A stretch of 64,000 bases of DNA from Paramecium tetraurelia (lineage: Eukaryota; Ciliophora; Oligohymenophorea; Peniculida; Parameciidae): the NCBI RefSeq assembly GCF_000165425.1, contig NW_001798969.1, positions 205,022 to 269,021 on the forward strand. Direction: 5' to 3'. Shown piece after piece: positions 1,309 through 47,184 of this stretch; within the stretch, counting starts at the first letter, position 1, and each line of letters starts with the position of its first letter. Both the position numbers and the translations under genes were made by a program. The notes under the pieces were generated by a model. That model was not told the origin of the DNA, ran no database searches, and saw only the letters and a program-made list of their open reading frames with translations.

Positions 1309-2025
1309 ATGCAAAAATAGATTTTAAGGCCTTAATTCTTATACTCTCTAGTTTACCAAAAGGCAACTCCTACTAGAACAATTGGTGGAAAACTACCAGT
1401 CTATGTTACACCTGCACCTTATGGTTTGGTTGTAATCTAGGAATGGTGGGGTCTCAATTCATCCATTTGTAAAACAGCAGATATCATGAGTTCTTATGGA
1501 TTCAAGTGTGTTGTGCCTGATTTGTATAGAGGGAAGATAGCTAAGGATACAGAAGAGGCAGGACATCTTCTTTCTGGATTAGATTGGAAATAAGCTTTAA
1601 TTGATATAGAAGAATCAGCACGTTATTTGAAGGAAGAATTGCATTGCTAAAAAGTTGGAATTTTGGGATTTTGTATGGGAGGAGCACTTAGCATAGCAGC
1701 GATTACAACATCTAAAATAATATCTGCTGCTGCACCATTTTATGGTGTATGTGACTTAAGTGCATTCAAATTATCAAATGCAAATGGACCAATTTTAGCT
1801 TAATTTGGTTAAAATGATGAGATGGTAGGTTTCTCATCAGTTTAAGACGCTAAAAGATTAGAATAAACTGCATAATCGTAAGGTAATAAGAGTTTGTAAG
1901 TGAAAATATGGCCAGGAGTAGGACATGCATTTTGTAATCAAGATAGACCAGAAGTATATAACTAAGTAGTAGCTAAGTAAGCCCTAGATTTGGCAGCAAA
2001 GTTCTTACATGAAAATTTAAAATGA
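1309..2025 (+). CDS. Dienelactone hydrolase family protein
   Basis: This is a single 238-aa exon with no intron, the usual length for the family. The catalytic nucleophile motif is GFCMGG, with Cys where other alpha/beta hydrolases have Ser, as in dienelactone hydrolases. An N-terminal EWWGL motif and a C-terminal PGVGHAF motif carrying the catalytic His are present, and an Asp of the NDEM segment fits the third member of the Cys-His-Asp triad. Known members hydrolyse lactone or ester bonds in the cytosol; the natural substrate in ciliates is not known. The ATG at 1309 is chosen because it is the first in frame and gives the normal N-terminus. The neighbouring gene converges from the other side, with 22 bp between stops. 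Confidence 0.88.
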
Positions 2026-2047: not shown

Positions 2048-3895
2048 TCAGTCAGAGACAATGAATTACTCATATTCTTCGATTAATTAATGTACAAAAT
2101 CTAATACTTTATAATCCTCCAAAGCAACTTTAAAGCTTTATTGAAAATCATAATATTAAGAGTAAGTGATTTTGAATCTTTTATGGATTATTTGTAAATC
2201 CTACTTCTTAAAGAATCTAACTCCGTAAAGTAACAAATTAAGTTTACACAAAATACTTTGACTCATGTTGGCCTCTTCAGTCTCATATACTTAATTAAGA
2301 TTTCTTTGAGCAAACTCGTACTCTAGAATCGAATGAGCCTTTGAAATCAAGTAATCCTCTCCAAGATTGACTATTAATTGACCTCTCGCTTCCCCAAGAA
2401 TGATAGGCCTAATTTCATCCCAATCTTCTTTGAAATCCTCTATAATCAAGTTGTCATTGGTTAATAGTTTGACTTCTTGGATGGCTTTTTGTTTGAGTTT
2501 CTCAAAAATCTTTTCATTTATTATGGCTTTTTTGCAATGTATTAAATGTAGATCATCTCTAGTAATAGCTTTTATGTTATATCTGAAGAAATAATGGAAA
2601 ATATTGCAACAGTGAGCAGTGAATCTTTGCTTTCCTCTACGAATTATTAATTCCGATAGCATGGTATCTTACTAGCAGCTGTTCACGAAGTTGTCAATGA
2701 ACTAATGAAAGCCAATTTAGTTCACATAATATTAGAGATCCTTCTTGTTGATTATAGCATATTTGTAGATATCCATTCTGCGTAATAATAATCTGATATT
2801 TTTCCAAGGAATATTTGATTCTTAAAGAGTTAAAGAAAGATAGTATTTAAAATTTGTAAGCTAAACATTTGTTAATGCATATTTAACATGTCTCTCTCTT
2901 AAAGTTTCACAAGAATAGTTTGGCGAATCTAAATGATAAATGAGCTGAAAGAACAATCTTGCAAATTTGATTTCTTAAGTAGCCACATCAATTTTTTCAA
3001 AATAAGGAGCAAGTGTGACATCAGACAAGATTTTTTTATACATGGATTTGGTTATTGCTTAGATACCTTATTCTCCTCCATAAATCTCATATTCCAAGAC
3101 TTCATTCAGTATATAAGGTCTCATGTTTTCAATTTTTTCACAGGAATTGAACATTTTCTCTGTTGGTATATTTAAAAGCATAAACCTATTCAGAAAGTGA
3201 TACTTAAACTTAAAAAAATGAGCATGAGTCAACTGCATGCCATTATGAATCACTCTTAAACGAGCTAAATCCAAAAACATTTATTAATCATAAGCTGTTG
3301 CCAACAAATTCCTAAAAATTTGTTTAACTCCATTTTGATTTTTATTAGGAAATTTTGGAGCGAGCATAGTATCTTTACGAGTAATATCAAAATATATTTG
3401 ATCTACCTCAAAATTGAGAAGATCTTCAGTGCCTTGAGGTTTAGGAGCCACCTTACGCTTCACTGATAACTTTTGAAGATAACTTTTAATTATTTAATCT
3501 TAAGATTTTATAGGCACCAATTATTACTATGAGTTCTAATGACTAGCTTTTCGAATAACATCATTAAATATTTATGAATTTCGAATTATATAAGAAGGTT
3601 TTTTTTTCTAACTCCATTATTTAATAGTAAAGAGTGGCAATTCTGACCTACTTGTTTTGGAGCATGATAATTCTTTGAATCTTAAATGTGTTTAAGGATC
3701 TCCATTGGATGCTCGTCTGTTGCTGAGAGCATAACTCAAGTTTTATTCGATTTAAAGTCCCTGTATTTATGATTCAAAGAGAGTCCTTTGGGATTCGTGA
3801 TAATTATTTTGGGATTTCTTTTTGCTCGTTCTGTATTATTTAACTGCATAATTTAATACGAAATCCTTAAATGATTATTAAGAGTCAGATATCAT
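2048..3895 (-). CDS. Tandem triple-globin-like protein, copy A
   Basis: This is one uninterrupted frame of 615 aa. A polar N-terminal region of about 190 residues is followed by three successive helical segments that each look like a globin fold with a candidate proximal His: RVIHNG (His about 217), LRERHVKY (His about 336) and LHLIHCKK (His about 453). The middle segment is the most globin-like: a YKKIL helix, LAPYF, then RERHVKYAL. A C-terminal helical tail of about 130 residues follows. It is a full-length paralogue of the gene upstream, matching it through all three segments and the tail. Globins bind haem for O2, NO or redox sensing; whether every segment binds haem cannot be told. The start lies only 17 bp past the stop of the upstream copy. 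Confidence 0.6.
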
Positions 3896-3912
3896 AAATA
3901 ATAAAATTTATA

Positions 3913-5968
3913 TCAATCGAAAACTATATGTTTTTTGTAGTCATCTATTACATCAAGAATAAAGTATAATTTTTGTGGTTCATCTTGCATAACTATTTTC
4001 ATAGCCTAAATAAATTGGTAGATATAATTAAGTACTTATTAAAATTCGAAATATGGTTACTCTCTTATTCTTAATCGTTTATGAAGAACCTCAATATCTG
4101 TTCTTTTGTAAAAATGGAGTCCATATAGAATTAAATTGAGTTTGCATCTTAAGTTTTAACCCACAGATGATTCATTATCCTTAGTTAATTTTACTATTTA
4201 CTTCAAATACTTTGTATAATAAAGGTCGCTGCATGATCTCATTTTCAAGTTTAGATGCTATTCTATTGATCACATGTTATCCTCCAAGCTATTTTATTAT
4301 AGTCTTCCTTGGTCTATTCAAAAGAATAGGAGTTATTTCTTCCCAATCCTCTTCAAAATCGCTTAATAAAATGGGATCATTAGTTACTTTGCTTACTGCT
4401 TGCATGGCTTTCTCTTTGAATTTCTTAAAGACCTTTTCTGAAATTATAGTTTTATTCTTATGAATCGATTCAATATCACTATCTGTAATTGACTTGACAT
4501 TATCTCTAAAAAAATAATGGAAAACATTTTCACAATGAGCAGTAAATCTCTACTTCCCCCTTTTTTAAACTAAATCAAAGAGGATTGGTTCGCTTGTACA
4601 TAAACGAACAAAACTATCAATGAACTCCCGATAACCTCCAGGAGAACTGAATATGCTTTCCTACAATGATTATTTGTTTAATATGGCAAATTTGTAAGTA
4701 TCCATTTTCCTTAACAACATTCTAATATGCTTAAATCTGATTCCTAATTTTTACAGCGTGGTGGATAAATAAAACTTAAAATTGGCCAATTAAACATGTG
4801 TAAGCTTGTATTTTACATGTCTTTCTCTCAAGACTTCTAGGGTATAATTTGGTGATTCAGTATGATCAATCAATTGGGCAAATAATTTCGCAAACTTAAC
4901 TGCTTGTTCCTCTAATTCTATTGCCTTAAAGTATGGACTTAATGTGTAATCTTTAAAGATCTTTTCATAAGTATTTTTAGCAATTTCATTAATTCCGAAT
5001 TCTCCCCCGAATATCTCAAAATCACTCTTCTCATTTAATATTAATGGTTTAAAATTTTCTAATTTATAGCATCCTTTAAACAACAACTCAACTGGAGTCT
5101 CCATATCCATAAATTGGTTTATAAAGAAATACTTAAATCTAATAAATTACTCCTTCTTTATAAACAAAGGTGCATGTATACTTCTCATCCGAAATGGATC
5201 AAGCAAGATTTCCTATGTGTACCCAATTCCTAAGATGCTCTTATAAATATCCTTCAAGTACTTTAATGATTTTCCCTAGAATTTGACCTTTAACTATCGA
5301 TCTTGAATAATACGTGAATAAAGAGTCTCTGAATGTTAATCAAGTAGTTCATTACAACCATATTGTTTTATCTAAGTTTTTATGATTCTCTAAAATTTAG
5401 TCTCAAAGAATTTGCTTATAATTTCAGTCTAGGTCATTGGTTATTACTTTAACTCTCTATGATGGGAATGTATTTTAGGCTTTCTTAGTTGTTCAAGTTG
5501 ATCTTGTACATTTCTTAATCCAGCAAAACTTGATACCTTAGTTTTTGTTGAGATGGGAGTGAATTTAAAATGAACAGGAGAATTAGGGAGTATGATGTCT
5601 TGTGAATCCCCTATCAACGGTAGTTGATAGGCAGTCTTTGCAGGAGATTGTTATTGGCTTCGAAAATTCTTGGCCTTATTTACAAAGTCCTTCAGTGCTA
5701 TTTGACATTAAGATGAATGCTTAATGACTAACTCATTTTATTAGTCAGATCGTAAAAGTGTATTTAACTATTTTTCCCACCTTTCCTTTTTAGAGTTAAT
5801 AGGAGAGCCTTATAATGGTGACAGTCGTCTTGTATTTTAGAATCTCATATCATCCTTGGTTTGCTACATTTGAATGAAGTCTCTAAAAGCCATGCTTTTA
5901 CTATCTTATTTCATATGCTCAGTGGGAAATTTTATTGGGCATCTCGGTGAAGTTGAAAGATTATGCAT
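3913..5968 (-). CDS. Tandem triple-globin-like protein, copy B
   Basis: The protein is 677 aa, made of two exons. The 22-nt intron at 4180-4201 is supported because splicing restores a C-terminal tail that matches copy A closely (RCKLN against LCKLN, HKRLR against HKRF). Without splicing a TGA would end the protein early. The N-terminal 200 residues are Ser/Gln-rich and basic. Three globin-like segments follow, with candidate haem ligands SIHAPLF (His about 265), RERHVKYKL (His about 384) and SIHKNK (His about 503). The middle segment has the classic YEKIF, LSPYF, EEQAVKF order seen in single-domain globins. The calls rest on motif reading, not on a profile search; segments 1 and 3 are more divergent than segment 2. 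Confidence 0.6.
4180..4201 (-). other. 22-nt spliceosomal intron
   Basis: The intron begins GTAAAT and ends CTAAG on the minus strand. Removing it restores homology with the tandem paralogue downstream, which makes this one of the best supported mini-introns in the window. Reading through would meet TGA within 3 codons of the intron end. Confidence 0.85.
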
Positions 5969-6804
5969 TATTATTTAAAAATAATAAATATTGCTTATAT
6001 AAAACTAACTTTATAAAAATAATTGTCTCAAATTTCTGACAGCCCTCACATTTGTTGAATTAAATTCAGTCATAAAGTAAATTTGGCTCTTTTAAAGATT
6101 ATTTCTATTAGTTTTACATTTTAGTCTAAGAACTGATTATCCATCATAATATTTTAATTATAAAGTCTAAAATTAACAAATTAAAAACAAAATTTTAACA
6201 ATTTAACTTATCAATATATATATTAGTCGATTAAATTCTTATTTAACAGCTACGTCAATAAATTTAGCATATGTTAAATAACACTATCTAAAAGTAATTC
6301 ATAAATTATTTAAATAAGTTTTTTTAATTCTAAATTATAAAAACTGCAAGCTTATGGTAACTACTCAAAATCAAACTGGAAAATAGTATTTCTCGTTTTA
6401 TAAATTTGTAACAAGATGAAACTATTCCTAATATTTAATTAAATTTTATTATTGTTTTAAGTTAATCTTAAATAAAGTTTCTTTATTATAGAAGTATTTA
6501 TTTATAATTATGACTCTATATTCTTATACTATATAATCAAGTAATAAAGATATTCTCAATTAATATCATATCGTATTAAGTAAATAAACCATTAAATAAA
6601 TAAATTATATTCTAGATTATGTCTTTGAAATTCGATTGATAATAATGTTATGTATACTTTTACGATAAATCATCATCTTAAAATCCAATCAACAGACTTT
6701 GAATTTAAATTAAAAATAAAGAAAAATTAGATTTGATTACTCAAACTTTGGTATTTATTAATTAATATTTTTCTAAGATATTTTTAATAATAAATTTAAA
6801 TTAT
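5969..6804. other. AT-rich intergenic spacer
   Basis: About 840 bp of very A/T-rich sequence lies between the start of the globin-like gene and the 3' end of the Gln-rich gene. No frame has coding-like composition on either strand and I see no RNA gene or clear repeat. The promoter of the globin-like copy B must lie in its left part. Confidence 0.6.
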
Positions 6805-7752
6805 TCAATAAATTTATGTACTATCTAAGTTTTTTAATGCTCTTGAACTATATATAATTAGAATTAGATATATACCCATAATAATTGAAAGGCTGATGGT
6901 TACTATCACTTTTTAATTTGAAAGTGTTTGGTGCTCCTGCCTAATAATTATTATATTATTAAGAGAAATACTAGTTTTGTTAAATATTTTATGATGGTAA
7001 TTAATACGTTTAATATTATTGCGTTGATTGGCTTGGTTACAATTAATATTATTATTATGTTGCTTGACTTGGTTATAATTAATATTATTATTGTGGTAAT
7101 TATGATTATGAAAGTTGTTGTTATGACTATTGTAATTATTATGAATGCATTTATTATTGTTGTAATTACTAATTTTACAATTATTATTCCTATTGGTATT
7201 AATAATTTTGATGCTATTAAGGATATACATTTTCTGCTTATTAATTCTACAATTGTGACTAAGTCATTTATTAATTTTATAATTGTGTTTGTGTTTTTAA
7301 CTATTATTAACTATCATAGCCAATAAGCATATTGCCTACGTTTTAGTAATTTATTCTTTATTCATTAGATTGCTGTGAATATCTTTGAGGTGCATAATCC
7401 TTCTGGTTTTGATTGTAGGGTTCTTTGCGAAAGATATTATCTTGCCCTAGGTACGAAAAATTGTGATTGTATCGCTATGGATCTCTTCCAGAAGGACTGG
7501 TGATTTAATAATTGATAAGCGGTTTCGTAAAATTTTTGATAGGATCAGGTCTAGATTATATAGATTGTGATACACATAGCTCTGATTCTTTAGTAATGAC
7601 TGACCGATGATCTAAGAGGGAGGCTCGATCTTTCTGACTCTGGGTCGTTCATGTAATCGAAGATCATCAGGATATTACTAAGGCTATTTGCGTTTGTTTC
7701 TTTGGCTAATTTCTTCTTGGAAGCTTCGAACATAGAGTTCTGGGTCTTGCAT
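6805..7752 (-). CDS. Gln-rich low-complexity protein, hypothetical
   Basis: The protein is 298 aa and of no recognised family. The N-terminal half is charged and Pro/Asn-rich. The C-terminal half is dominated by glutamine, mostly written TAA and TAG, with runs of Q broken by Leu, Ser and Tyr. Two introns fit: 23 nt at 7551-7573 and 28 nt at 6848-6875. The second is followed by a normal-looking end (LKNLDSTQIY, then TGA). It is transcribed in the same direction as the MORN/pseudokinase gene, 152 bp downstream of that gene's stop. The long open frames on the opposite strand here are mirrors of the Q-rich repeat. Confidence 0.7.
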
Positions 7753-7904: not shown

Positions 7905-10180
7905 TCAATAAACTAGTTTGTTGTTTATCCATCTGCCATCCATGATTTTTCCATTCATACAATAGAATATGCCAGGACCATTTATAAAATCTTTTTAGAA
8001 AGTGCCCACAAATCGTTCCCCATTGGTTAAGTAGAGGGTACCCTACCCTTCCTTGTTATCCTAATCAAAATTTCCACTATACTTAATCCAGTAACTAAGG
8101 ACATATAGGATATTATATAATACTCTTCAACATTGTCGAAATCTCTGTAATCAAATGATTCTTGCAATGGTTAAGGATGCTCATTGTATAGAGTTCCATG
8201 ACCTTAAAACTAATCTTCACTCCATTGTCCCTAATAGGCAGGTTGTCCTGTTGCATAATAGAGTGTGCCTAAAAAAGAATGTAATTGATTCATTACCATC
8301 TCCGTGCATCTTGTTCTCTTTCCACCCACCATCATACAATCCACCATCTTGATAGTAAAACTTTCCTTATCCATGTCTCATGCCATTGGCTTTCATTCCC
8401 TCATAACGAGATCCATTTGAATAATGCTCAACTACAAACTCTGGTCTACTGACACTGTCAGCCTTAAATTAAGGGATGTCATATGGTAATGAAAACTCCT
8501 TGGTTTAAGTGGCTGTTATTTATTAAGGAAGATTGGTGGAATCACTAAGAATTTTAGAAAATTTGAAATATTCTTATCTTTAGGTGGTTTATTCGATATC
8601 TTCATCAGGTTGAGGGTCTATATTTTCATCAAATTACGACTATTTGCTTATGGTTTCACTAGGTTATTTGAAGTGTAGAGTGTCACATTGATCAGGTTGC
8701 AGAGCCTGGATTGGAGCAGGCTACTTTTATATATTGCTGCCCTTTTAACTACTGAATTGATATTCCTGTGCTTATTAAGTGGTATAATTCATTCTAGATT
8801 ATTACTAAGTTGCTGTTCTTGTATTTGACATTTTATTAGATAAAGGTTTTGGAGGAAAATATATTTATTAGTGCTATCCACTTTTATTACTAAGTATAGA
8901 CAAATCTGTGGGAATTGTTGGTATAGCATATGTGTATGTCTAATTCACATCCTTGCTGCTATGTCTCGATCCTCTGAGTCTTGGGACTGAACTATCTCTA
9001 TTATCTCTTACTATCAGTTACTATTGAGGTACTAATATTTTGCCTAAGGGAGTGAGACTTCTTTATGAAGTGTCAGTTTTAATTGAATATTAATGAACAT
9101 ATTCTAGTGGTGCGATGTTCTACACTTATTGAACTCTTCTCGATTGAATCTATTAGAGACTATTCACTTAAGTTAGGCTTGGTTGAATTGTAGTATTGGC
9201 AATAGTTGGATGTTGTTGTTGTATTGTTTATAGAGTATTAGATTAATATGTAGGATCTATAATGATCTACCTTTAAATTACATTGGGGATATATTATTGT
9301 TTATTCTGAACTTATTAATTAGTGATGTATTGTTCCATCTATAAGAAATCTGGCCTTTGATCTTCTTTGATTGTTAACATTGTTGTTATCCAATCGCAGA
9401 ATTGCTGTCCATATCTCTGCCTCAATTTTTATAGTTTACTATTCAAAACATCCTCAATTAGTAGGCCTTGTTCGTAGGAGTAACAATCGGAACTTGGTTA
9501 ATTTAAGGCCAAGTGGAGGAAGAGCATGCCCAATGTGAATAGGTCACTCTTGTGTTCATTGTGTTTTGGTTACCAATTGTTTAATTGAATTGACTTCACC
9601 AAAATTGGGGATAGATAAATGCATTCCAAACAATTCGGATTTTAGAGCACTTACATAAAGTTTGTGTTATGTTGAAAGTACATTGGGTCTGTCACTTTGA
9701 TTGTGTCATCAACCAGGTACAGGTATTTGAGTTACAGTGAATTGTGCGGAATCTCATTTTTTTGCATGCATGCTAATCCTACAATCGCTTGTTTCAAATA
9801 GGATACTAATTGGGTTTCATTTAGTGCTGGAACTAACTCCAAATTGCCAGTCGGATACTCAAAAAGTAAGTAGACTTTGTAGAATTGTCCACAGAGTTAT
9901 TACTCGAATTGGTAAAAGTAATTGCTCAGATTAAGCACATTTTAATGATTGATTTTATGTCTTACTTGGTATTGTTGGACAGCCTTCTTGAAGTGAATCT
10001 CATCTGTTATGTTCAAAGTACGAAGAATCAACTTCTGATGAGGATCTCTCTTATGCTATAGGATTAGACACTCAGGAAAGTCTATGATCATCTACTTTAC
10101 GACATACCATTGTTATAAACATTAATCTATCTGAAGTGATCATAAAGCTTAGTGATTGGTTTCGAATCTGTTGCTCCCAT
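7905..10180 (-). CDS. Pseudokinase with C-terminal MORN repeats
   Basis: The protein is 730 aa after removing introns of 26 nt (10095-10120), 28 nt (8269-8296) and 29 nt (8095-8123). Residues from about 15 to 290 have the layout of a protein kinase domain, with hinge-like LLFEYP, a C-lobe SDLFTLG and a conserved late Arg (EDQRPDF). The catalytic HRD is replaced by PHNS and the DFG by VTDP, so phosphotransfer is unlikely. A Ser/Gln-rich linker of about 230 residues follows, then at least four MORN repeats (SRYEGMKANG, GLYDGGW, YSGNFDQDNKEGQGTL, ERFVGTF), which usually attach proteins to membranes. It is probably a scaffold at the cortex or a membrane; the partner is unknown. Confidence 0.75.
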
Positions 10181-17377: not shown

Positions 17378-20294
17378 TCAACTTATCCACATCTTTTTTG
17401 AATAGTGTTCAGAGGAACTTACTTCAGATTATCGTTATGGATTTTTCATGCGTCCTTAATTTAATTTAAACTAAAAATAGGAAATTAAAATAAAAACTTG
17501 TCTTGATTATTTTATTTCAACTAAAGTAGTAAATGGTAAAAATTGCTTTAATCTTTCTGGTTTGACTTCAAGTCTAAATCTATTGATATCCTCAATATTG
17601 ATTGCATAATAATCCAAGTATTCTTCAAACACATTGACACTATTTTAATATTTAAAATTCTTACTCGTATTCAGTGTCTATTTTTGGTTTTATTTGTGCA
17701 CCATTGTAATACTTTTAAACTTCTTTCAAAACAACTGATAAATTATTGTGAGTGTTATAAATTTCAAAATCAAATCCAACTTCAAAATGATCAATCAAAG
17801 AATAAGTTTATTAACCTTTATTTTAAGTGAATAGATTCTCTTAAATTTAATTTTCTTTTTAAACTTAATATTCTAATATGATTTCATCCAATTTCTATTA
17901 GATTGTCTCTGAATCACTTTCTTCCTCTGAACTTTCATTTTCATTAATTTTACTATGACTTATACTGCTGCTCTGCATGTTTAATGAGGGTGTTGAGGAT
18001 TAAATTAATTAAGAGAGAGATTTAGTAAGATTATAGAGATCATTTTGTTTTTGATTGATCATTTAGACTTAGTTCTATTATGCACGCATGACCTTTTATA
18101 TTTCTCTTCTTCTGCTTCGATCTTCTTTGAATTTTGATTTGATTTTAAAAGGTTAGGGAACACTTTTAAATTGAATAGTTTTAAATTGGCCATCATCCAA
18201 ATTACACTCTTCTACAATAAATCCTGTCATTGGGATTACAGTTTAGATACTTAATGCCTCTTTCTTGATAAGCTATTAATGCTTGATGGCATTAAAATGT
18301 ACTCTATCCTTTCTCACATACTCCTTCATGATTTATCTGATGCATCTATTCTTTGTTTTATTATACACATATAGATCCACAAGGAAATGCAATTGTGGAC
18401 AATCCCTAACAACATGTCCTGGCAATTCACAAGCAAAGCAATGTATCTAAAGAACTTAAAATTGATGTTTATTGACTTCCTCTTAGATTAAATAGAACTT
18501 CTCAAAATCCTTAGGGTATTTTTGCAATATCTGCAAGAAGTCCTCCCTTTTGAGAACAAACAAATCGCTAAACCCTTCACTCTTGGCTGAGGCAGTTCGA
18601 CCTACATTTCCAAAGAAGTTGATCTCCCCAAAGATTTACTTATTAGTTAATTTGGCTACAACCTGTCGAGTCTTAGGCAACACAATGTTGATCAATCCGT
18701 CTTGAATGAAATAGAGATGATGTGAATTTTTGGGGTTATCTTCAATGATGATATATTCATCTGGTTGTGCAGTCTACTCGAATAAGATTTGAGTAATGTC
18801 TAAGAGGAGGACACGAGAGAAGGTCTTACAGAAATTTGTATAAGTAGCTAAGATATTGCCATTAACATGGACAGTTAACAACTATTTCAATTCTTAGGAT
18901 AGATTAACAGTGATTGCATCCAGTTTAATAAGTCTACTCGAATCCCAAATGTATTATAAATACTTTCTTACTCTCTACTAGAGGTGTTTGGGTATCTTTA
19001 CTTTCTGCATGTAATTGTTGATTTCAGCAATATTCTTTTTTTACTAATCTTTTTTTTAACTCATTTATTACATGGTATTTCCTATGGAATTCATTGTAAA
19101 TGACAACACCCCACAAGCTACCAATAAGAAGAATATTCCACAAAATCTCTCGGTGGTTGTTTAAGGGGAGATGTCTCCATAGCCAACAGTAATCATGGTG
19201 GTGACAGCCCAATAGATTGATGTCACATATCTTACTTCTACAGGTTAATCGTAAATCCCAGCAACGACTAACCAATTGTGATTCGGATCTTCCTGCATTC
19301 CTACAAAGTGAAAGATGCACCCCAACCAGTGCGACCAAAATAATACAAAAAAACTTAACTTAAGGAAGCTAGCAATTGTATTTATGGTAGTATAGGTCTG
19401 TAATTGTTCCTCTATTTTATCGAAAATCACTTTTAGTTTTGCTAACCGAAGTAATCTAATGATCTTAATAAATCGAAAGAATTTTAATAGTCTCAAAATT
19501 TAAGCGCTTTATTGTAAGGTTTTAGATGATCCAGCATTTTTGGTAGTTGAATCAGTTTCTTCGGCATCAGATAACAATACAGATTCTATAATCTAATTAT
19601 GATTGTTTCGTTTAATACCATATCATAGGGGAAAGATGCAATGAGATCCAACCAGAACCAAAGTTTCATATACTGTTTGAATATCGTTGAATATTGATAG
19701 TTGATTGTTCCTTTGATCCAGACTGCTGTGTTGAATGTAACTACGATGTCAATCAAGAAAATAGCAGTGATGAATGTACTAAGTTCATTGCTTATCTCGA
19801 AATCGAAACTGATTCTAAAAGGGATCGACAAAATTTCATAGAATATTAGAAACATACACAAAAAATCCCAAAGGATTTTGAGTGTTCCATCTGGGGAAAA
19901 TACAATGGATTCTAAAAAGGTTAGTCTTTTTTTTGCCTTTGTTCTTTGCTGAATTGAATTACTATTTTTCATCGATGAAAGTGCCATAGTGAGTGTCATT
20001 TCCTTAGACTTCTCCTTTCTTTCAACACACGCGTCATTGTCGAAGGGAGTCTTGAAATCATACATTCGCTGCTCTTGTCTTGAATGATGTAAGGACTTTA
20101 AATAGGATTGAATGCAAAAATACTTTGTCGTTCAATATGTATTGTTCAGTGGGAGACAAACAAAGGTAAGCCTTGCGGTCAGATATAGATTTATTAATGT
20201 ACTCCAATCGTCTTCTCTCTCTTTCAGTGTGTTTGTTAAAGTGTTGCTTTTCCAAGAGGTTGGTCTTTAGAAATTTTTTAACAATAATTGACAT
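17378..20294 (-). CDS. Cyclic-nucleotide-gated / HCN-type cation channel with zinc knuckle
   Basis: The protein is about 940 aa. Residues from about 90 to 330 form S1-S6, with an Arg-rich S4 (RLLKFFRFIKIIRLLR) and a K+-type selectivity filter TVGYGD. A C-linker and a cyclic-nucleotide-binding domain follow (FGEINFFGNVGRTASA, with the phosphate-binding GE...RTA signature). Just past it is a CCHC zinc knuckle, CFACELPGHVVRDCP. The rest is a Ser/Gln/Glu-rich cytoplasmic tail. Introns of 25 nt (20072-20096), 26 nt (19593-19618) and 25 nt (17640-17664) are well supported, and a further 27-nt intron near the 3' end is likely. Such channels set ciliary membrane potential and swimming behaviour in ciliates. 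Confidence 0.88.
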
Positions 20295-27906: not shown

Positions 27907-29839
27907 ATGATTAAGTACTTACTTTTTGTATGTTTGATCACAACACCTTTTGCCCAAACATCTGAGGCAGTTGTAACTCATTATGATTTGGAGGGCAATT
28001 TGATTTAGGAAGACAATTCCTTACAAGTATCTGATGACATTGACAGTATGAATTCAATGACCATGAATTAAAAAGATGTATACTCAAATGACATGGACTC
28101 AATCGGAACTGATAGCATGGATTATTAATCACCAGAATAAGAATCTGTTGAAAGTAGCAATCTTGAAGCTCCAATGAATTTAGAATAAACTGAGAATGAC
28201 AGTATGAATGTTGACCCCAATTCCATGTCAGCCTTAGATTCTATGACAATGAATGGCAGTTTGGAAAACTCTATGCCTGAATAAGATTCCATGTACAGCA
28301 CCAATGATCCAAATAATATTAATGCTGTTGAACCTAACTCAGTGGAAGAAGCATTACCCACACAAAACACTGAGGTTTCTAATTTGGCTGATGCTAACTC
28401 AGAGGTTAGCAATGAAATACAGAACACTAATTTGATTGCAGATCCCAATGAAATCAATATTGTTGATCCAAATAATCTTGGAATACCTTAGGATAATCAA
28501 ATTGATGTTTAAAATATTTTAGAATCAAATGTTGGATTTACTACTGAGACTAACGATCCAAACAATTTAAGCTAAAATGAAGTTGATCCAAATATGGCAT
28601 TTGAAGTTCTTACAAATACAGATAATTTATAATCATCTTCGGAATTGGAAAATGGATTTGCTTAAAGTGAAGTTACTATGGAAAAAAATAAAGTGAAAGA
28701 AATTCCTGAACCAAAAAACGATGAGGAGCATGGTTCAGGTTAAGGGGAAGAAAAATCAGAAGAGGAATCTGAAGAACATTAAAATGGTACTTAATAATCC
28801 AACCACGGACATTCCTAGGGATAAGATAATTCCAATACTCCAGGATTAGGATCTGGTCATCATACAGATTAAGGAGATGGTGATTAAGGATAAGGAGATG
28901 GTGATTAAGGACATGGTGATTAAGGACATGGAGATTAAGGTCATGGTGATTAAGGACATGGCGATTAAGGACATGGTGATCAAGGACATGGAGATGGAGA
29001 TTAAGGACATGGTGATGGAGATTAAGGACATGGCGATGGTGATTAAGGACATGGTGATGGAGATTAAGGACATGGCGATGGAGATTAAGGACATGGCGAT
29101 GGTGATTAAGGACATGGTGATGGTGATTAAGGACATGGTGATGGAGATTAAGGACACGGTGACGGCGATTAAGGATAAGGTGAGGAAAACCAAGGATAAG
29201 GAAATGGAGATTAAGGATAAGGTGATGGTGATTAAGGACAAGGTGACGGTGATTAAGGATAAGGAGACTAAGGATAAGGTGATGGAGACTAAGGATAAGG
29301 AGATGGAGACTAAGGATAAGAAGGTGGAGATTAAGGATAAGGTGATGGAGATTAAGGGTAAGGTGATGGAGATTAAGGGTAAGGTGATGGAGACTAAGGA
29401 TAAGGTGACGGTGATTAAGGATAAGGTGACGGTGATTAAGGATAAGGAGATGGAGATTAAGGATAAGGTGAAGATAACTAAAATGGAGTTAAGGGAGAAC
29501 TTAAGGCAGTAGATTCAACCACTAGTAAATCATTAGTTTAAGGAAATTGTATTATCATTTATTCTTAATGTAACTTCAAGGGAGAATCCTTAGAAGCATG
29601 CAATAGTTTAAGCGAAATTGAGTAAATTTATTAATTATCCTAGGGAATTCAAAGCTTAAATTAGATCAATATATATCCCAGATGGATTGGGATTGACAGT
29701 TTATGATGGCGAGAACTTTACTGGTAACCTACATAAATTCAAATCCTCTTAGGAATGTTTGAAAACCCCATTATCATTTGCCCAATTAGCCAATTCTGGA
29801 AATTAGTTGAGAGGATAAAATTTGAGGTCTAGATAGTGA
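27907..29839 (+). CDS. Secreted acidic repeat protein with beta/gamma-crystallin-like C-terminus
   Basis: The protein is 636 aa. Residues 1-18 are a clear signal peptide (MIKYLLFVCLITTPFA). An Asp/Asn/Ser-rich acidic region follows to about residue 315. Next is a tandem array of GDGDQGHGDQ and GDGDQGQ units (28870-29480), all Gly, Asp, Gln and His. The end is a Cys-containing domain with two Greek-key-like signatures, IIYSQCNFKGESL and LTVYDGENFTGNLHKF, as in beta/gamma-crystallins. A 22-nt intron (29622-29643) inside this domain is needed to join them. In Tetrahymena, secretory-granule tip proteins of the Grt1/Igr group carry such C-terminal domains; a trichocyst or secretory-granule role here is an inference. 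Confidence 0.75.
28870..29480 (+). repeat. In-frame GDGDQG(H/Q) tandem repeat array
   Basis: About 600 bp of in-frame units of 9-21 bp lie inside the secreted protein gene. Up to about 29165 the link is mostly GGA CAT GG (Gly-His-Gly). After that it is GGA TAA GG (Gly-Gln-Gly), so the array has two zones. The array is open in several frames on both strands, which creates long spurious reading frames. Confidence 0.9.
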
Positions 29840-30118
29840 AAGCATTATAATATTCATATCACATTATTTCGATCATTCTTTATAGATTAAAATATAAGAA
29901 GTTAAATATCCATTTGTATACAGATTGCAGAGTGTTCTATCGCATCCATTTAGATCTTTTGTAAATGTTTCAACAATTAAATGGTTTTACATCATTGTTT
30001 ACACTCGAATAATCAGCTTAATTCAAATCGAGCCAGGAAATTCAAATTGACAGTTTAACAGAATTAAATGTTATTATTATTATTTAAAAGTAAATTCTTA
30101 TACATACTAAATAATTGA

Positions 30119-33100
30119 TCAATTAACCAAAATGCCTGGCTTAATGAATAAAATCATCACAACCACTACAGTGATAAAAAGTCCAGCGAAGATTTTGACA
30201 TAAAGCATAAAATTGCCCATACCAAAACCTGCTCCCTTGAAAAAGTCAGCCAACCCTCTTCCCTCAGTTGGTTTAACTAAATAAGGATCTTCATTTGGCT
30301 CATCCTATCCATCTCCAACAGGTTATCCATCAGCTTATTGTTTCGTAAGTATCTTCATTTGAATGAGTACTTAACCTCTGTTTTACCCAGGATAATTTGG
30401 ATGAGACAGCTTTATTTTGGTGGGAGGCATCTCATATTTTCCATCCCTTGATAATCTTTTGATAATTCTATGGGTTAAACATATATACTTACGGTTTTAA
30501 TGACATAGTAGCTTCTCCAAGGGATTCATTAGAACCAAAGGGTGAAAAGTCATAGACTGTCATCTTTAACCTTGGGAATGGGCATGGAATAACCAGTGGA
30601 AATCTCATACGATAAGAGAAGGATCCATCACCATTGTCACTACCATTGTGTACATCTGTCTCTTTGGCTACTTCAGCATCTTTGCCTGTAGCAGAGGCAT
30701 CCATAGCTACGGTTACCATAATGTCGACAACTTTCTTAGTTGCTACCTTTGGTATTTCAAAAGTTTCCCAAATGATCAGTCTTACCTCGTATTCCTAGGG
30801 TAATGGAGCCTACAATGGAGCAGGTTCAATCTCTCTTGCTATATCAATAGGCAAGACTTCCAGAAACATCTCAACAGTTCCTTAAGAGGCTTGTTGTCTT
30901 CCATCTATTTTTAAATCCTTATACTCAACAGGAACCTTGAACTTCTTATCAAAGTTTTCAATTCTTTATTACAAATCTGTAATTTGTCCTGAAAGATATC
31001 CTTTACGTCTTTCAGCATTTTGACTATCATCATATTTTAAGGCTTCTTTTTCAGTTTCAAACCTTTCTTTAAAGACAGTGTAAGCTATTCTCTACTTTAA
31101 CTTTTCTTCACCAACAACTCTATCTTCAATGTCAATTTGAATGCTACCAATAACAGAATCGAACATCCCTTTACTTTTAATATGTAATTTCATTTTCCAA
31201 TCAGTGGGTAATTCTGCATCCAACTCATACATCCTGAAAAAATTAGGACTTAATGTATTTTCAATTGGTCTATCCTGATCAGTGATGTGTTTGATCAAAT
31301 CTTGATTATCATGTCCGCTTTCCCCTATGAAGATTTCTGGATAGGAATCTGCTGAGCAAACAGCTTAAAGTCCAGCCATTTTATGATAAGCGTCTATATC
31401 TTACTTTTATGCTGCTAAATTGAGACATCTCAAAATGTATAATCTCACTTTTAACCTGTAAGGCTGATTGAAGAATTATAGAAAGCCCTCATCAAATAGA
31501 TTAAAGGAATAATCATCTGGCTTATCTGGTACATCCTTTACTGAGGATTTCTTTTTTGAAGTTTTCGACACCTTTGATTTTTTAGATTATTTCTGGTTAT
31601 CAATCACAGTTCCCCCATAATCTGATATTCTAATATCTCCTTTAATAACCGCATCAGTTGGATTCCCAATTAATCCATATTTAGTTGAAGACAATCTATA
31701 TAGAGCAAATCTTCTAAACGGAATCTTGGGAGCTAATTTCTCTTCATATGGACCCTTTAACACTTCTCTACCATAATCATACCCTTCATCCTCATCTACT
31801 TCATTGGTTCCTTTAAAATAGTTTGTTTCTTTAATCTCTACTCCTTTCAATTTTTCTACCTCTCTCTTAATGAGTAATTTCAATTGATCGAACTTCTTAT
31901 ATTTTGTCTTATAAGTCTTTATCATTCCCAACAATTTCTTCTCCTTTTCCTTATTCTCCTTCTTCTTGTCTATAATATCCTCCAATTCAAATGTAAGATG
32001 TGTCATCTCAGTAACTTCGACATTCTGAACTCCCTTATTCTTTAATGTAGATTTTATCTTCAAATCAGGTCTCTCTGCCATCACACTTAACTTGGACATT
32101 GTTGAATACTTTTGGGATTTGCCTGATTAATTACTCTACTTTTATTAACTCATCTTTTCAGGTGCAACACTCTACTTCACAGTTTCTTTAGGTTGTGTTT
32201 CCTTTGGCATAACAGTGTCTTTTTGATCTTATTATTTTTATGATTCTGCATCATGGTTTACAATCACATTCTCATTATCTTCCTAAAGGTCCTCATTTTT
32301 GCCTACATTTAACTAAATATCATCAAAATTTTTCCCTTATTCAAAAAAATTCCTTGCTTCATCAATTAAAATTTAATCCTTTGTTTAAGCTACATCAATC
32401 AATGGAATTGAACAAATGTATCTTTCACTTTTATTGAATGTATCAGATAATTGAATTTCCAATTAAGGATAGAATTTGATGTCCTCTGGTAAAAAAACCT
32501 TTAAATTAACCAATTTTAAGAAGACTGGATCTTGAATTCCTCCTCCAAACCAACTCTTATCATTTTCTAATAAATCTTTTTAAGCCTAAATAATTTCACA
32601 AGGCTCACTATTGTAATAACTTGGATTTTCAACACTTGAATCAACCATATTAAATGGAACTGGCACTTAAACCATTAATTTTGGATCTTTCATTTTCTAT
32701 TTTAGATTTCTCACTCCAAACACTGGGAATTGAGCCCATTTTTAAGTGAATCCTTCTTAGGGAATTATGGGAGTTGGGTCTTCTGAAAAAGCTTCTTTAT
32801 TCTTACCCAATTCTCTTAATTTAAATGCTGCCAAAATTCTGCCAGCTGATTAACCTTAATTGATTATATGATGGAATCCAAAGATGGGATCACCTTCATA
32901 CTTACAAACAAGAGCAGGTATGCATATATCTCCAATGTGATTATTACTGAACCATGAATTGGATTTCTTTTGATTTGTAAAAGTTATAATGATGTTGCTT
33001 GCAAATTCAAGATTTTAATCTATTTTCACAATTTTCTCGAATGCCTTATTCCAAATTGGATTCTTGCCTGATTGTGGCTTGTCTAACTCTAAATATTGAC

Positions 33101-34802
33101 CCCCTATTTTCATCACAAAACTTGCCTGGACTTCCTCTGAATATAGATCAGGACACAAATCATACCCTGCGTAAAATTAGGCATACAAGTGATAATATAC
33201 CTATTGATCTCTCTTGACTATAATTTTAGGTATCTTAAACACAGCGCTTTCAGTTCGAAATATTATGTTAACTAAAAAAAAGCTATGAGGAATATCATTG
33301 TTATCTGTTTATTTGACACTCTTGAATGTGTACCATTTGGGTCTATTAGTTTCTAAGTCTTTGTCTGAATACGGAATTCTTAAATAGGCCACTCTCTTGC
33401 CCTTCTCATTATGTAAGGATACAATCAAATCAGGAATTTATTAAGTATCCTGTGGTAAATCCAATTTCTCATCTTTGGTTTAAATCTATTTGCCCCATGT
33501 ATAACTAATCCCTTAAATCTCTTTGTTTTCAGTCTAAGCCTTCTGTTTATATTTGCTTTTCTTCTCTGTCTTAATATAGGCTTCGTTTGATTTAAAGACT
33601 ATTCCACCAACTTTGAATTTCACTGTAATCTTTTCTCCACAATCTTTAGCTTCCTAGATCTCATATGTGTCGAATCTCAATAAATATTTTTCAATTAGTG
33701 GTTCTCTCTGAGTTGTTAGTGGAACAACCATTAATTCAGGTTTTTCACTTTGAGTAAGATTTATCGACATCAAGACTCTGCCCATGAAGTCTGTTCCGAT
33801 GATACTCTTTTTGTAACCAAGAAATGCCTATTGAAACCCACCTGGTCTTTCATCTTATGGTATTCCATAGAGATTGAACCATCTGAATGGCATTACTCCA
33901 CCTTTACTCTACAAAAAATTGATATTAAAATAATCGTTTTCTGTTGGGACTTCTGGGATCATCGCAATAAAAGTATCTGTTGCCATAGTTCTTCTATCCC
34001 AAACTCTTACCACTATTTTATCGTTGAAAAATGGAAAATGCAAAGGGAACATCAATCGAGACAAGTATTAGGGTTTCTATTGGTTCTTCATTACGGATGT
34101 TATTTGGGCTGTACCTCCTGCTCTTACAGATATAAAACTATCGAGGGTGGGATAACCCATCAATGCTAAGTCTTCTGCTTTTGCAATGTTAACCATCAAT
34201 TGATAGGATTTTCCCCGAATTTCAGGTTTAGAAACGACAGCAATTCTATTCTTTCTCTCTATTCTCGCTTACAATTATTCTGGATTCAATTGGTCATCTG
34301 GAACACCTCCAAATTCATCAGGTTCTTCCTCCACATTATTCTCGTTCATATCGTGGACAGGCGGACGATCAGTTGGGGATATAACATACGCGGATGACAA
34401 TAAAAACCCTTACGGCTCTAATCCTTGTTTAGGATGAACCAAAGGTAACCAAGTATTAAAGATCTCGTGAGCAGGATTCCTGTAGAGCGTTGAAATTCCG
34501 ACTGAGTAAATACCAACAAGTTGATTTTATCCAAATTGTTTTAAATCGTACACTTCTATTTTAATCTCAAAACTCTCGAATTCTATCGAGTTCATTAACA
34601 ACCCCGTGAATGTAAATGATTAGTTAAACACAGCAGTATTTGCAGCCTTTCTAGTCGTGGTTACTTATGGAGGCAAATTACCCACAGATATCTTGACAAA
34701 AGGATCACAAGCCCCAGTCTTATCTCCGCCCTTAAGATCTCTCACTTCTATTACTTACACCTAAACCAAATACTCTTGCCTCTACTGCTACTTATTCTTC
34801 AT
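30119..34802 (-). CDS. Ferlin-family multi-C2 membrane protein
   Basis: The protein is about 1552 aa; with the single clear intron (25 nt, 30468-30492) the remainder is an exact multiple of three. It starts with a C2 domain (VQVIEVRDLKGGDKTGACDP, then FVKISVG). The middle has a charged helical segment and a region containing RRFALYRL. A typical late ferlin C2 carries SPNFFRMYELDAELP and IGSIQIDIEDR. The penultimate C2 carries KETDVH and GDGSFSYRMRFPLV, close to the ferlin KETDVH...G-GNFNWRF motif. The last 25 residues are a single membrane anchor (FAGLFITVVVVMILFI) just before the stop. Ferlins are Ca2+-dependent vesicle-fusion and repair proteins, so a role in exocytosis is plausible. Confidence 0.85.
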
Positions 34803-35438
34803 TATAACTATATTATATATATACAATTAATTAATCTAAAACAAGAGCACATCTGTTTTTTATTATAATTAAACTGCATAACCCACTTTATATTGAAAAC
34901 TAAATAACAAGAAATCCATTCAATCTAATTGATAATTCTCGAAAATACATTTTATTATATCTATGTATATTCATTTTGCTAGAATAACCAACCCATTCTT
35001 TATTTTTAAATATTTCTTAGCAATCTCGTTTTTCAGAGTTAACGTGCTTTTATACTTTGTTACTGATTTTCTCTCAATATCTTGGGGATTAGGTCTACAC
35101 CAAATGTTTTGTCAAGGTAAAAGAATAATCAAAAATCAAGATGTAACTTCGTAATCCCTAAATCTCATGTTAGAATAGTTGAAAAAGTATAATAAACTTA
35201 GATTAACCATATTGAAGAATTAATATACTAATAAAATTGAATTAATTTGAATGATTCTACTATATCAAAGTTATTGGATATGTAATTTCAACTCCAATAA
35301 TATATATAAATTATGAATAATTGATCTGACTTATTTTTAGTTCAGTCTAAGTATTTAAGTTCAAATTAAAAAAGTGATACTTTGATTATATTTGCTTTAC
35401 TATTTCTAAAAGCAAATCTTAAATAATTATTTAATAAA
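34803..35438. other. Divergent spacer with an unresolved minus-strand open stretch
   Basis: This A/T-rich region lies between the ferlin and DM10-protein starts. On the minus strand about 47 codons ending at TGA 34971-34973 look coding (NPQDIERKSVTKYKS), without a start codon or a clear splice partner. It may be the last exon of a small gene or a relic. Both promoters should lie here. Confidence 0.4.
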
Positions 35439-44487: not shown

Positions 44488-47184
44488 TCACCCAAAATAA
44501 AGTAGAACCTCATCATTTTATCTGTCATTCTAATCCAACAGCTTCTATTCGCTCTTAATCTTCTCATATTGATTGACCCAAAGCTATATTATAAGATCAA
44601 CATGCTACCTTAAGTCCATCATTCCTCAATCTCTATAATTATGGTATTTCAGACTCCAAAGACTTGAATTCTAATTGTTTCAACCCAATCTACTGCTCCC
44701 CCTTACTTTGGATTTTGATGATCTGATCTGCCACCTCTGTTGTCTTAGTAATTAACTTGGCTTGCTCACTTGACACTTTCAGATTAGTAAGCACCTACTG
44801 GAATATCAACTTATCAATAAACTAATTTTGATTGATCTGAATCAAAAGACACTGGCTGATTTCAGTGCAGGCCTAGATGTTGTTGGTTTGAAGAGATAGA
44901 TCAACAAAGAAGCATCCTTTAAGCAAGAGAACTTCGTACATTCTTCTCAAATGGCTAGCCAATGCTGAACATGATTTAATTTCCGATGTTGATTTCAATA
45001 TGGTATAGTACTATCTTATTATCTCTGGGTAATTGGTGTTGGTAATATTTCTTAAGGGTAATTACTATAATAATGAATTGATCATCAGATACTCATCCTT
45101 AAGTTTCTTCAAATCATTTTCATAGTTTGTGGTTATCAGATTGGTTTGAGTAAGGAAGTATTTAATGTAATTATTCACTTCTTGAGGTTTATTCAGTTGA
45201 TCTTTAATCAACGATATATCTTATTGCACTGTTGTCAATGTCAAATAATACAAGTACACATTTTGATTGACTGAATTCAAAAACTAATCGAAATTGCTGA
45301 ATCTCTCGAATTCTCTCTCCAATTGATCCCTATACTTCACCAATCTATTTTTCTATTATTAGATTTATTGTAGAATTATGGGTTTTCTATTTAACACCTT
45401 CTATTCATCCTAGGCAATTAACTATTTATCTTTGTCTTCCTAAAGGACAGACAATAATTTCTAATTGATTTGAATCTTATCTACTTTTAACCATTGTTCC
45501 TATTCATAAATCAACCCAGAGACATTAGAATTTACTCTATTTGACCCAGAGGCATCTTTGTAGACCTAGGCAAAATCTACCTTAGTGACTGTGCTGTCGT
45601 TGCATTTCCACCAAGTTGTTAAGTCCTTCTTGTCTAATATGTAACAATAATAATGTCCACTATTAGCTGATCCATCATGCATTAATACAGATGTCAATAG
45701 ATACATGTTTTAATCAGACTTTAATAGTTTTTTCTTTTGTTCTTAAATTCTTTCCAATTAATCTGTTAATAACTAAACAGTTATCATCATTTTCTCCTTA
45801 TATGATTCTAATTGGAATAGCATTTAGTCACTTGGGATAATGTTTGGATTTGCTGTTTTTTCATCACATATGCAAAACCCATCAATAGTAACCAAATTGT
45901 CAATTTATCCTTCGTTTCTTTTGAATAACTTGATAACTCTATTAAAGTTTTCTTCGATCTCATCCTTTGAGTCTCCGAGACTTTTAAGTTGATCTAGAAT
46001 TCTTTGCTCCTCTTCGTCTAACTTTTAGAGTTCGAAATTCTTCTAACCCTAATTAATAGTTTTAAATTGATTGATGTTTAGGGAGGAATTGAAGTTAAAT
46101 TAGGAATTGTTCTTGCATACCGACTTTTACTTTGGATCATAATAAACTCTATTGACGTAGAAGGAGATTAGAAATGGGGCTTGCACTATATTTTAATCGA
46201 TCTTAGCTTTGGTTTTCTCCTTGTTATCAGTTTCATATTCATCAATAATTAGAACTCTTGTGTTTAAGAACCCTTTTTCTAGATCCTTATCTGCAGCTTC
46301 AATGCTGATTGATCCGAATGTGGTGTCATTAAACTTGATGATCTCCTTGTCGTTCTCCTTGTAGCTCAGGATTTCTTTGGCTTCCCCGTAGAACATCTCA
46401 CAAAATTGTTTCTTTTTTTATTCAAATTCTTCTTCCTTTAAAGCCTATTCGATGGCATCCAAGAAGGAGTTTTATAACTCATTAAAATCGTTTTGGATTC
46501 CTCTAATGAACATGGCGCTAGGTTTGAATTTTTGGAGGGCCTCGAACAAGTTGTAAGGACTTGTGTAGGATTGATTGGATTCCTGGAGCATCAGGAAAAG
46601 CTATTATAATTATAATAGAAAATTGGAGGCTAGGGATTGGTTGTCTTTTAGTTCGAGTTCAAGGATGAATTTTCTGAATGGCAGGACATTGAATAGACTC
46701 TGCAACATGGCATTCATGTAACAAGCTAAAAGGTTATAAATTTAAAAGATTTATACTGTTGCCTAAATTCTTGAGGCCTATAGGGGTGGATTTATTGGTT
46801 CTGTCTTCCGAAATAATTGGTTTGGATCTATGAATATTTGTGAATAAATAGTACTGGGCATTTTAATCCAAGGAAAGTTGGATGGCGATTTTTAAATCTT
46901 ACTATTCTATTTATTAGAGTTGCAATTTCAGTTGCATCTGAGAATTGAATAAATCCTCCTCATTCATAATTTGGGCATTCTCTTGCTCACTACATTAGGA
47001 ATACAGTTGCTTACCTAATTTTAATGAGTTCTTCATGGAATGTTTATTGATTGTTTCCACATTGTTGCCATGCTTTTAAGATGTGAGTCTTTTTGAACCC
47101 AATCTAGGAGTATTATTGGAATAATTGATCAAATATGGTCGATGTGTGTTTAAAGCTGCGATTTAATTGTTTGTTGGTTCCCAT
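44488..47184 (-). CDS. Ubiquitin carboxyl-terminal hydrolase (USP family)
   Basis: The protein is 871 aa with introns of 25, 31 and 25 nt; the exon sum is exact. The Cys box is GLKNLGNACYMNAMLQSLFN (family GLxNLGNTCYMNSxLQ-L), split by the 31-nt intron just before the catalytic Cys. The His box is SVLMHDGSANSGHYYCYI followed by WWKCNDSTVTKV. A long insert with coiled-coil character separates the two boxes, and a charged helical tail follows, a layout like USP25/28. It cleaves ubiquitin from proteins. Its start codon lies 20 bp from that of the divergent TPR gene. Confidence 0.88.

Follow-up and report, generated by a model that had tools for sequence, protein, structure and literature searches.

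Two adjacent paralogous genes, here called A and B, lie on the minus strand at positions 2048-5968 of a 64,000-nucleotide stretch of Paramecium tetraurelia DNA (contig NW_001798969.1; this whole stretch is referred to as the window). How many globin domains do their products contain, and how many of these may carry haem? The original prediction had described a tandem pair of proteins with three globin-like domains each, a long polar N-terminus and a helical C-terminal tail. The tandem pair was located in this range, which covers both genes, and the long polar N-terminus is present in both translations. However, A and B each consist of this polar N-terminus followed by four globin repeats.

The four repeats of A and B

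The repeats were assigned as follows (window positions; residues of the respective protein):

3107-3433, minus strand: A repeat 1, residues 155-263; F8 histidine H217 (3247-3245), profile matches
2750-3106, minus strand: A repeat 2, residues 264-382; group-I truncated hemoglobin with Y286 (B10), F299 (CD1), Q307 (E7) and H336 (F8)
2396-2749, minus strand: A repeat 3, residues 383-500; helix-E H428 (2614-2612) and F8 H453 (2539-2537)
2051-2395, minus strand: A repeat 4, residues 501-615; F8 histidine H571, motif IIHKRF
5036-5359, minus strand: B repeat 1, residues 204-311; H265, motif SIHAPLF
4679-5035, minus strand: B repeat 2, residues 312-430; Bac_globin above the Pfam cut-off, F8 H384, motif RERHVKYKL
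4319-4678, minus strand: B repeat 3, residues 431-550; helix-E H478 and F8 H503, motif SIHKNK
3916-4318, minus strand: B repeat 4, residues 551-667; spans both predicted introns, H622, motif VLHKRL

The proximal histidines are regularly spaced, by 119, 117 and 118 residues in A (H217, H336, H453, H571) and by 119, 119 and 119 in B (H265, H384, H503, H622). The first three motifs of B had been named before and are all present. The fourth had been missed because the frame of B changes at a predicted 22-nt intron; in B, repeat 4 lies behind this intron, and A has it without a frame change, which rules out a three-domain reading. The supposed helical C-terminal tail is repeat 4.

Spliced alignment yielded 21 gene models of this family in the genome, and repeat alignments were built from 11 of these 21 members (smaller set) or, after segments of at most 60 residues had been dropped, from 21 rows (repeats 1 and 2) or 20 rows (repeats 3 and 4; larger set). 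Comparison by hhalign linked repeat 1 with repeat 2 (E 2.1e-10 with 11 rows, 8.7e-13 with 20-21 rows), repeat 1 with repeat 4 (2.8e-6 and 1.1e-8), repeat 3 with repeat 4 (4.6e-6 and 2e-6) and repeat 1 with repeat 3 (1.2e-4 and 6.9e-5); repeats 2 and 4 matched at 3.7e-5 in the larger set. In a column-shuffle control, none of 60 shuffles reached the observed score in four of the six repeat pairs. Repeats 2 and 3 cleared their shuffles narrowly (19.8 versus 18.5 for the best shuffle). Further support is provided by profiles that leave out the A/B subfamily and were made from 12 other members (repeats 1 and 2) or 11 (repeats 3 and 4); these find all four repeats in the correct order in both A and B. 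When the repeat profiles were run against 1014 frames of the window, nothing outside A and B fell below an i-E of 0.047.

The F8 histidine is retained in 21/21 members in repeat 1, 19/21 in repeat 2 and 20/21 in each of repeats 3 and 4 (one gap). In the 11-row alignments it is among the five, six and four invariant columns of repeats 1, 3 and 4, respectively. A globin-type helix order with this histidine is indicated by predicted structure for repeat 3 and by profile comparison for repeats 1 and 4. In a structure model of the whole core, 48 of the best 50 listed Foldseek matches were truncated hemoglobins (best E 0.0024), the aligned repeat not being identified in these matches. Mixed-repeat alignments were not used for structure prediction, as helix E was out of register. 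Altogether, it is considered highly probable that each of the four repeats has a globin fold.

Globin character of the individual repeats

Repeat 2, the middle domain of the original prediction and there said to read like a true globin, is clearly a group-I truncated (2/2) hemoglobin with a predicted canonical O2-binding pocket. In B it reaches 22.3 bits with Pfam Bac_globin (PF01152; cut-off 21). The A copy scores 20.8 bits within the whole protein (E 0.00045), just below the cut-off, and 21.9 as an isolated domain. All 11 scanned members showed a Bac_globin match in repeat 2 at E <= 1. A search of solved structures (hmmsearch) with the repeat 2 profile gave 30 matches, all globins, the best being Paramecium caudatum hemoglobin (1dlw, 5.8e-11), which resembles repeat 2 over ~100 of 119 profile positions with B10, CD1, E7 and F8 in register. 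These position names are the ones we assume for 1dlw. The pocket is well conserved: Tyr-B10 in 20/21 members and Phe-CD1, Gln-E7 and His-F8 in 19/21 each. Contacts of Tyr-B10 and Gln-E7 are described for globins including those of P. caudatum and Tetrahymena pyriformis (PMC7082302). Binding of haem in repeat 2 is very likely.

The globin assignment of the first and third domains, proposed earlier, held up on weaker evidence, namely profile comparison for both and a Foldseek search with the repeat 3 model, and the fourth domain is likewise assigned by profile comparison. Against a set of five single-domain globins from this genome, repeat 1 gave an hhalign E of 7.4e-11 and repeat 4 one of 1.9e-7; all ten solved-structure matches of repeat 4 were globins (best 0.003). 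The best Bac_globin E among repeats 1, 3 and 4 was 0.00098, weaker than the 0.00045 of A. These three repeats stay below the curated PF01152 cut-off and are classed as globin-like rather than as members of this Pfam family.

For repeat 3, a structure predicted from the two window copies alone reached a pLDDT of 79.6 and a pTM of 0.78. Globins made up all of the best 50 of 268 Foldseek matches (E <= 10), truncated hemoglobins taking ranks 1-8, with TM-scores of 0.30-0.66 among the matches listed. Cyanoglobins account for three of six weak solved-structure matches of the repeat 3 profile (0.38-0.39, ranked below a ferritin), and its hhalign links run to repeats 4 and 1, as given above for 20-21 rows. 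In the model, H453 (local residue 76) ends helix 69-77 (helix F) and H428 (local residue 51) lies in helix 45-60 (helix E). The helix-E histidine is found in 18/21 members (two gaps, one Ile) and aligns, in a weak alignment (E 0.38), with a histidine in helix E of Synechocystis GlbN, which we take to be the E10 distal ligand. The Synechocystis and Synechococcus globins are reported as six-coordinate, His or Lys at E10 being possible sixth ligands (PMC4720485). By this likeness, it is an even bet that repeat 3 holds a bis-His (six-coordinate) haem. When repeat 3 was used to look for viral relatives, not one of 94 pattern matches was confirmed, and Foldseek against viral structures was uninformative (one Edafosvirus 'Globin', rank 12, E 2.8).

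Gene models, family and genome setting

The assembly comprises 69.07 Mb in 231 contigs and is A+T-rich (GC 0.25-0.35 per 4 kb). With the standard code the region of A and B is broken; long frames appear once TAA and TAG are read as Gln (NCBI code 6), gene A containing 34 such codons. Code, base composition and the short predicted introns (22-30 nt) are suggestive of a Paramecium-like ciliate. In a BLAST alignment of 530 columns, A and B are 43% identical (B before removal of the second intron). Both introns of B are predictions from comparison with A and related loci. The models are:

2048-3895, minus strand: gene A, 615 residues, intronless code 6 open frame, stop TGA at 2050-2048
3434-3895, minus strand: polar N-terminal segment of A, residues 1-154, from the translation
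3896-3912, minus strand: gap of 17 nt from the stop codon of B to the start of A
3913-5968, minus strand: gene B, 667 residues, three predicted exons (5968-4202, 4179-4036, 4005-3913)
4202-5968, minus strand: B exon 1, 589 residues in code 6; encodes the polar N-terminus, the first three repeats and the beginning of repeat 4
4180-4201, minus strand: B predicted intron 1, 22 nt, GT..AG; its removal restores the frame aligned to A
4036-4179, minus strand: B exon 2, 48 residues; part of repeat 4 with F8 H622 (4083-4081)
4006-4035, minus strand: B predicted intron 2, 30 nt, GTA..TAG, without internal stop; a stretch without counterpart in A
3913-4005, minus strand: B exon 3, 30 residues and stop TGA

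The Pfam scan of A gave no match within residues 1-154. The model of A agrees with intronless 615-residue matches of 70% identity at loci C74 and C50. In spliced alignments, the first intron of the B-type counterparts measures 22 nt at C217, 26 nt at C74 and 28 nt at C50, and the second measures 24-25 nt at these loci. The 17-nt gap leaves little space for separate transcript ends; because of this short distance, A and B may share one transcript. Read-through from B into A, giving a single protein with eight domains, was rejected as a general rule, as the gap breaks the frame in the window; the gaps at C74 and at C50 measure 21 nt and are in frame.

Whole-genome searches gave 28 matches with A and 25 with B exon 1. 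The 21 member models were obtained with a spliced aligner seeded with A and B, and their N-termini are unreliable. B-A pairs occur at C16 (the window), C74, C50 and C5, and B without A at C217. Single family genes are found at C25, C166, C219, C128, C55, C34, C174, C1, C40 and C21, and partial models at C187 and C159. At C128 (L036/L039), two matches in different frames meet within repeat 3 near the helix-E histidine; this frame change may be a small intron, an assembly error or decay. The 1382 bases covered beyond B at C217 contain no globin repeat better than E 0.1 but do contain the dienelactone hydrolase neighbour of A, so that A was probably lost there.

A repeat tree was built from nine of the 21 members per repeat and the five single-domain globins. 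A and B form separate clades with support 1.0 each, and the A and B copies of C5 fall within their respective clades; therefore, the tandem duplication predates the block duplications. Repeats 2, 3 and 4 are clades (support 0.99, 0.99 and 0.96), and repeat 1 is not resolved. The family is under strong purifying selection, with dN/dS values of 0.036-0.139 in the six of ten pairs with unsaturated dS (dS was saturated in the other four). Outside the four-repeat family, the genome holds 19 further PF01152 loci (L001-L012, L014-L020), of which 18 match at least one repeat profile, at a single place; L018 gave no match. A whole-genome search with the Globin family PF00042 found nothing. For a single-domain globin fragment of the same genome, the closest solved structure is the truncated hemoglobin (trHb) of T. 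pyriformis.

Further features were observed in the window:

1312-2022, plus strand: dienelactone hydrolase gene (Pfam DLH), converging on A; also near the C217 and C50 loci
6689-7648: frame upstream of B, very rich in Gln, with 57 TAA/TAG codons read as Gln
8220-10139: protein kinase domain followed by a MORN repeat (Pfam)
17628-19622: ion channel with cyclic-nucleotide-binding domain
28450-29840: repetitive stretch with several open frames on both strands, Lys/Asp/Met-type on plus and His/Leu-type on minus
30435-34919: frame of 1495 residues with C2 domain matches in two stretches and no other Pfam family at E <= 0.001
44600-46927: ubiquitin carboxyl-terminal hydrolase

Haem content and possible roles

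The explanation we favour, and consider fairly likely, is that A and B arose by tandem duplication and are truncated hemoglobins (2-on-2, group I) of four domains which carry several haems and serve O2/NO chemistry. The polar N-terminus would probably be flexible and both proteins would work inside the cell, each chain holding several haems, up to four. Repeat 2 with its Tyr-B10/Gln-E7 pair would be the reactive site, binding O2 tightly and handling NO. In repeat 3 the second conserved histidine, at or next to E10, could form a bis-histidyl haem as in cyanobacterial GlbN, and repeats 1 and 4, whose distal sides are less polar, might bind haem with other affinities. The main task may be NO dioxygenation or O2 buffering. 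Haem in three or all four of the repeats appears somewhat likely, and for a function in O2/NO chemistry the chances seem evenly balanced. Globin counts reported for the genus, with two genes in P. bursaria against 21-46 in other Paramecium species and a proposed tie to O2 from algal symbionts (PMC6474222), are not specific to the present genes; the contrast fits O2 handling.

A number of results weigh against this explanation. Among the repeat pairs, repeats 2 and 4 match weakly with 11 rows (hhalign E 0.0018, probability 14.8%), as do repeats 2 and 3 with 11 rows (0.021, 2.2%) and with 20-21 rows (0.011, 3.9%). One of 60 shuffles exceeds the observed score in the pair of repeats 2 and 4 and one in that of repeats 3 and 4; these score 135 and 131, the next-best only 19-20, and we take both to be degenerate alignments, although they are still counted. 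The model of the whole core is poor (pLDDT 53.4). Repeat 3 matches no Pfam globin in any of 11 members even at E <= 10; its best solved-structure match is the ferritin (0.064), its comparison with the five single-domain globins is weak (hhalign E 0.003, probability 10.5%) and its model has no Foldseek match at E 0.001 or better. The top-scoring solved-structure match of repeat 1 is a repetitive lectin (8.2e-6, the sum of five weak stretches), and at E <= 10 Pfam detects repeat 1 in few of 11 members (Globin 2, Bac_globin 1) and repeat 4 in one (Bac_globin). The F8 histidine of repeat 2 is missing at C187 and C159. Finally, the consensus alignment of repeat 4 lacks Tyr at B10 and Gln at E7, because of which this repeat is possibly haem-free.

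Could haem be confined to repeat 2, with repeats 1, 3 and 4 as haem-free globin folds that act as scaffold or regulatory modules? Haem-free globin-fold modules are known in other systems, repeat 2 alone retains all of B10, CD1, E7 and F8 in almost every member, and the other repeats have diverged so far that Pfam mostly misses them. However, their F8 histidine is the most conserved residue counted in each and stands among their few invariant columns, and the models at C187 and C159, which have lost the histidine from repeat 2, keep it in repeat 1. We consider this arrangement possible but rather doubtful. A gas or redox sensor, in which ligand changes at the haems would reach partner molecules by way of the polar N-terminus or of the globin array, would suit the long N-terminus common to A and B and the unlike pocket residues of the repeats. 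Yet neither protein contains an output domain at the Pfam cut-off; Bac_globin is the sole family found at that level, which is not the composition of a globin-coupled sensor. Moreover, the N-terminus is poorly conserved, unlike a signalling module, the BLAST alignment of A and B beginning only at A residue 104. We regard a sensor role as unlikely. That the repeats are chance helical, non-globin segments is very improbable: the proteins are rich in helix and in Gln/Lys, and most matches between repeats and Pfam are weak, but profile, repeat-repeat and fold evidence all point to globins, and no other frame of the window scores below the i-E of 0.047 given above.

Among known systems, the hemoglobins of P. 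caudatum (1dlw, 116 residues) and T. pyriformis (3aq5, 121 residues) are single-domain proteins, whereas A and B are fusions of four diverged domains. GlbN (1s69, 1mwb), with whose helix-E histidine that of repeat 3 aligns weakly, is likewise single-domain and has the weak sequence similarity given above. Truncated hemoglobins have mostly been studied as small one-haem proteins. The globin domains of the annelid Branchipolynoe have the 3/3 fold. Its extracellular haemoglobin resembles A and B in holding four globin domains per chain, an arrangement whose original duplication is dated to ~60 Ma (PMC4503718), but A and B are built of ciliate 2/2 domains with unlike pockets. The nine-domain haemoglobin of Artemia and the di-domain globins of nematodes and bivalves (PMC4503718) are also multi-domain, but of animal origin. 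A term search of the main text of that animal-focused study found no ciliate, Paramecium, Tetrahymena, protist or 'truncated'. For ciliates, a 2006 census lists no globins other than 2/2 ones (PMC1457004). Limited literature searches confined to open-access papers, not all directed at this question and several listing part of their hits, revealed no account of ciliate truncated-hemoglobin domains arranged in tandem. Annotated Paramecium genomes may well already contain the family without a name.

One extension of the favoured multi-haem explanation, speculative and quite unlikely in our estimate, is a haem relay in which a bis-His haem of repeat 3 takes up electrons and re-reduces the haem of repeat 2 in the same chain. 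If so, the tetra-globin would be a self-wired NO dioxygenase or nitrite reductase, and A and B, if co-produced, might make up an assembly of eight haems. Because Pfam detects just one of the four domains in A and B, the published Paramecium globin counts (21-46 genes, PMC6474222) may under-count domains. The conserved four-in-a-row form, with one O2/NO pocket and one apparent bis-His switch, would make cooperation between haems testable in the 2/2 globins of a laboratory organism.

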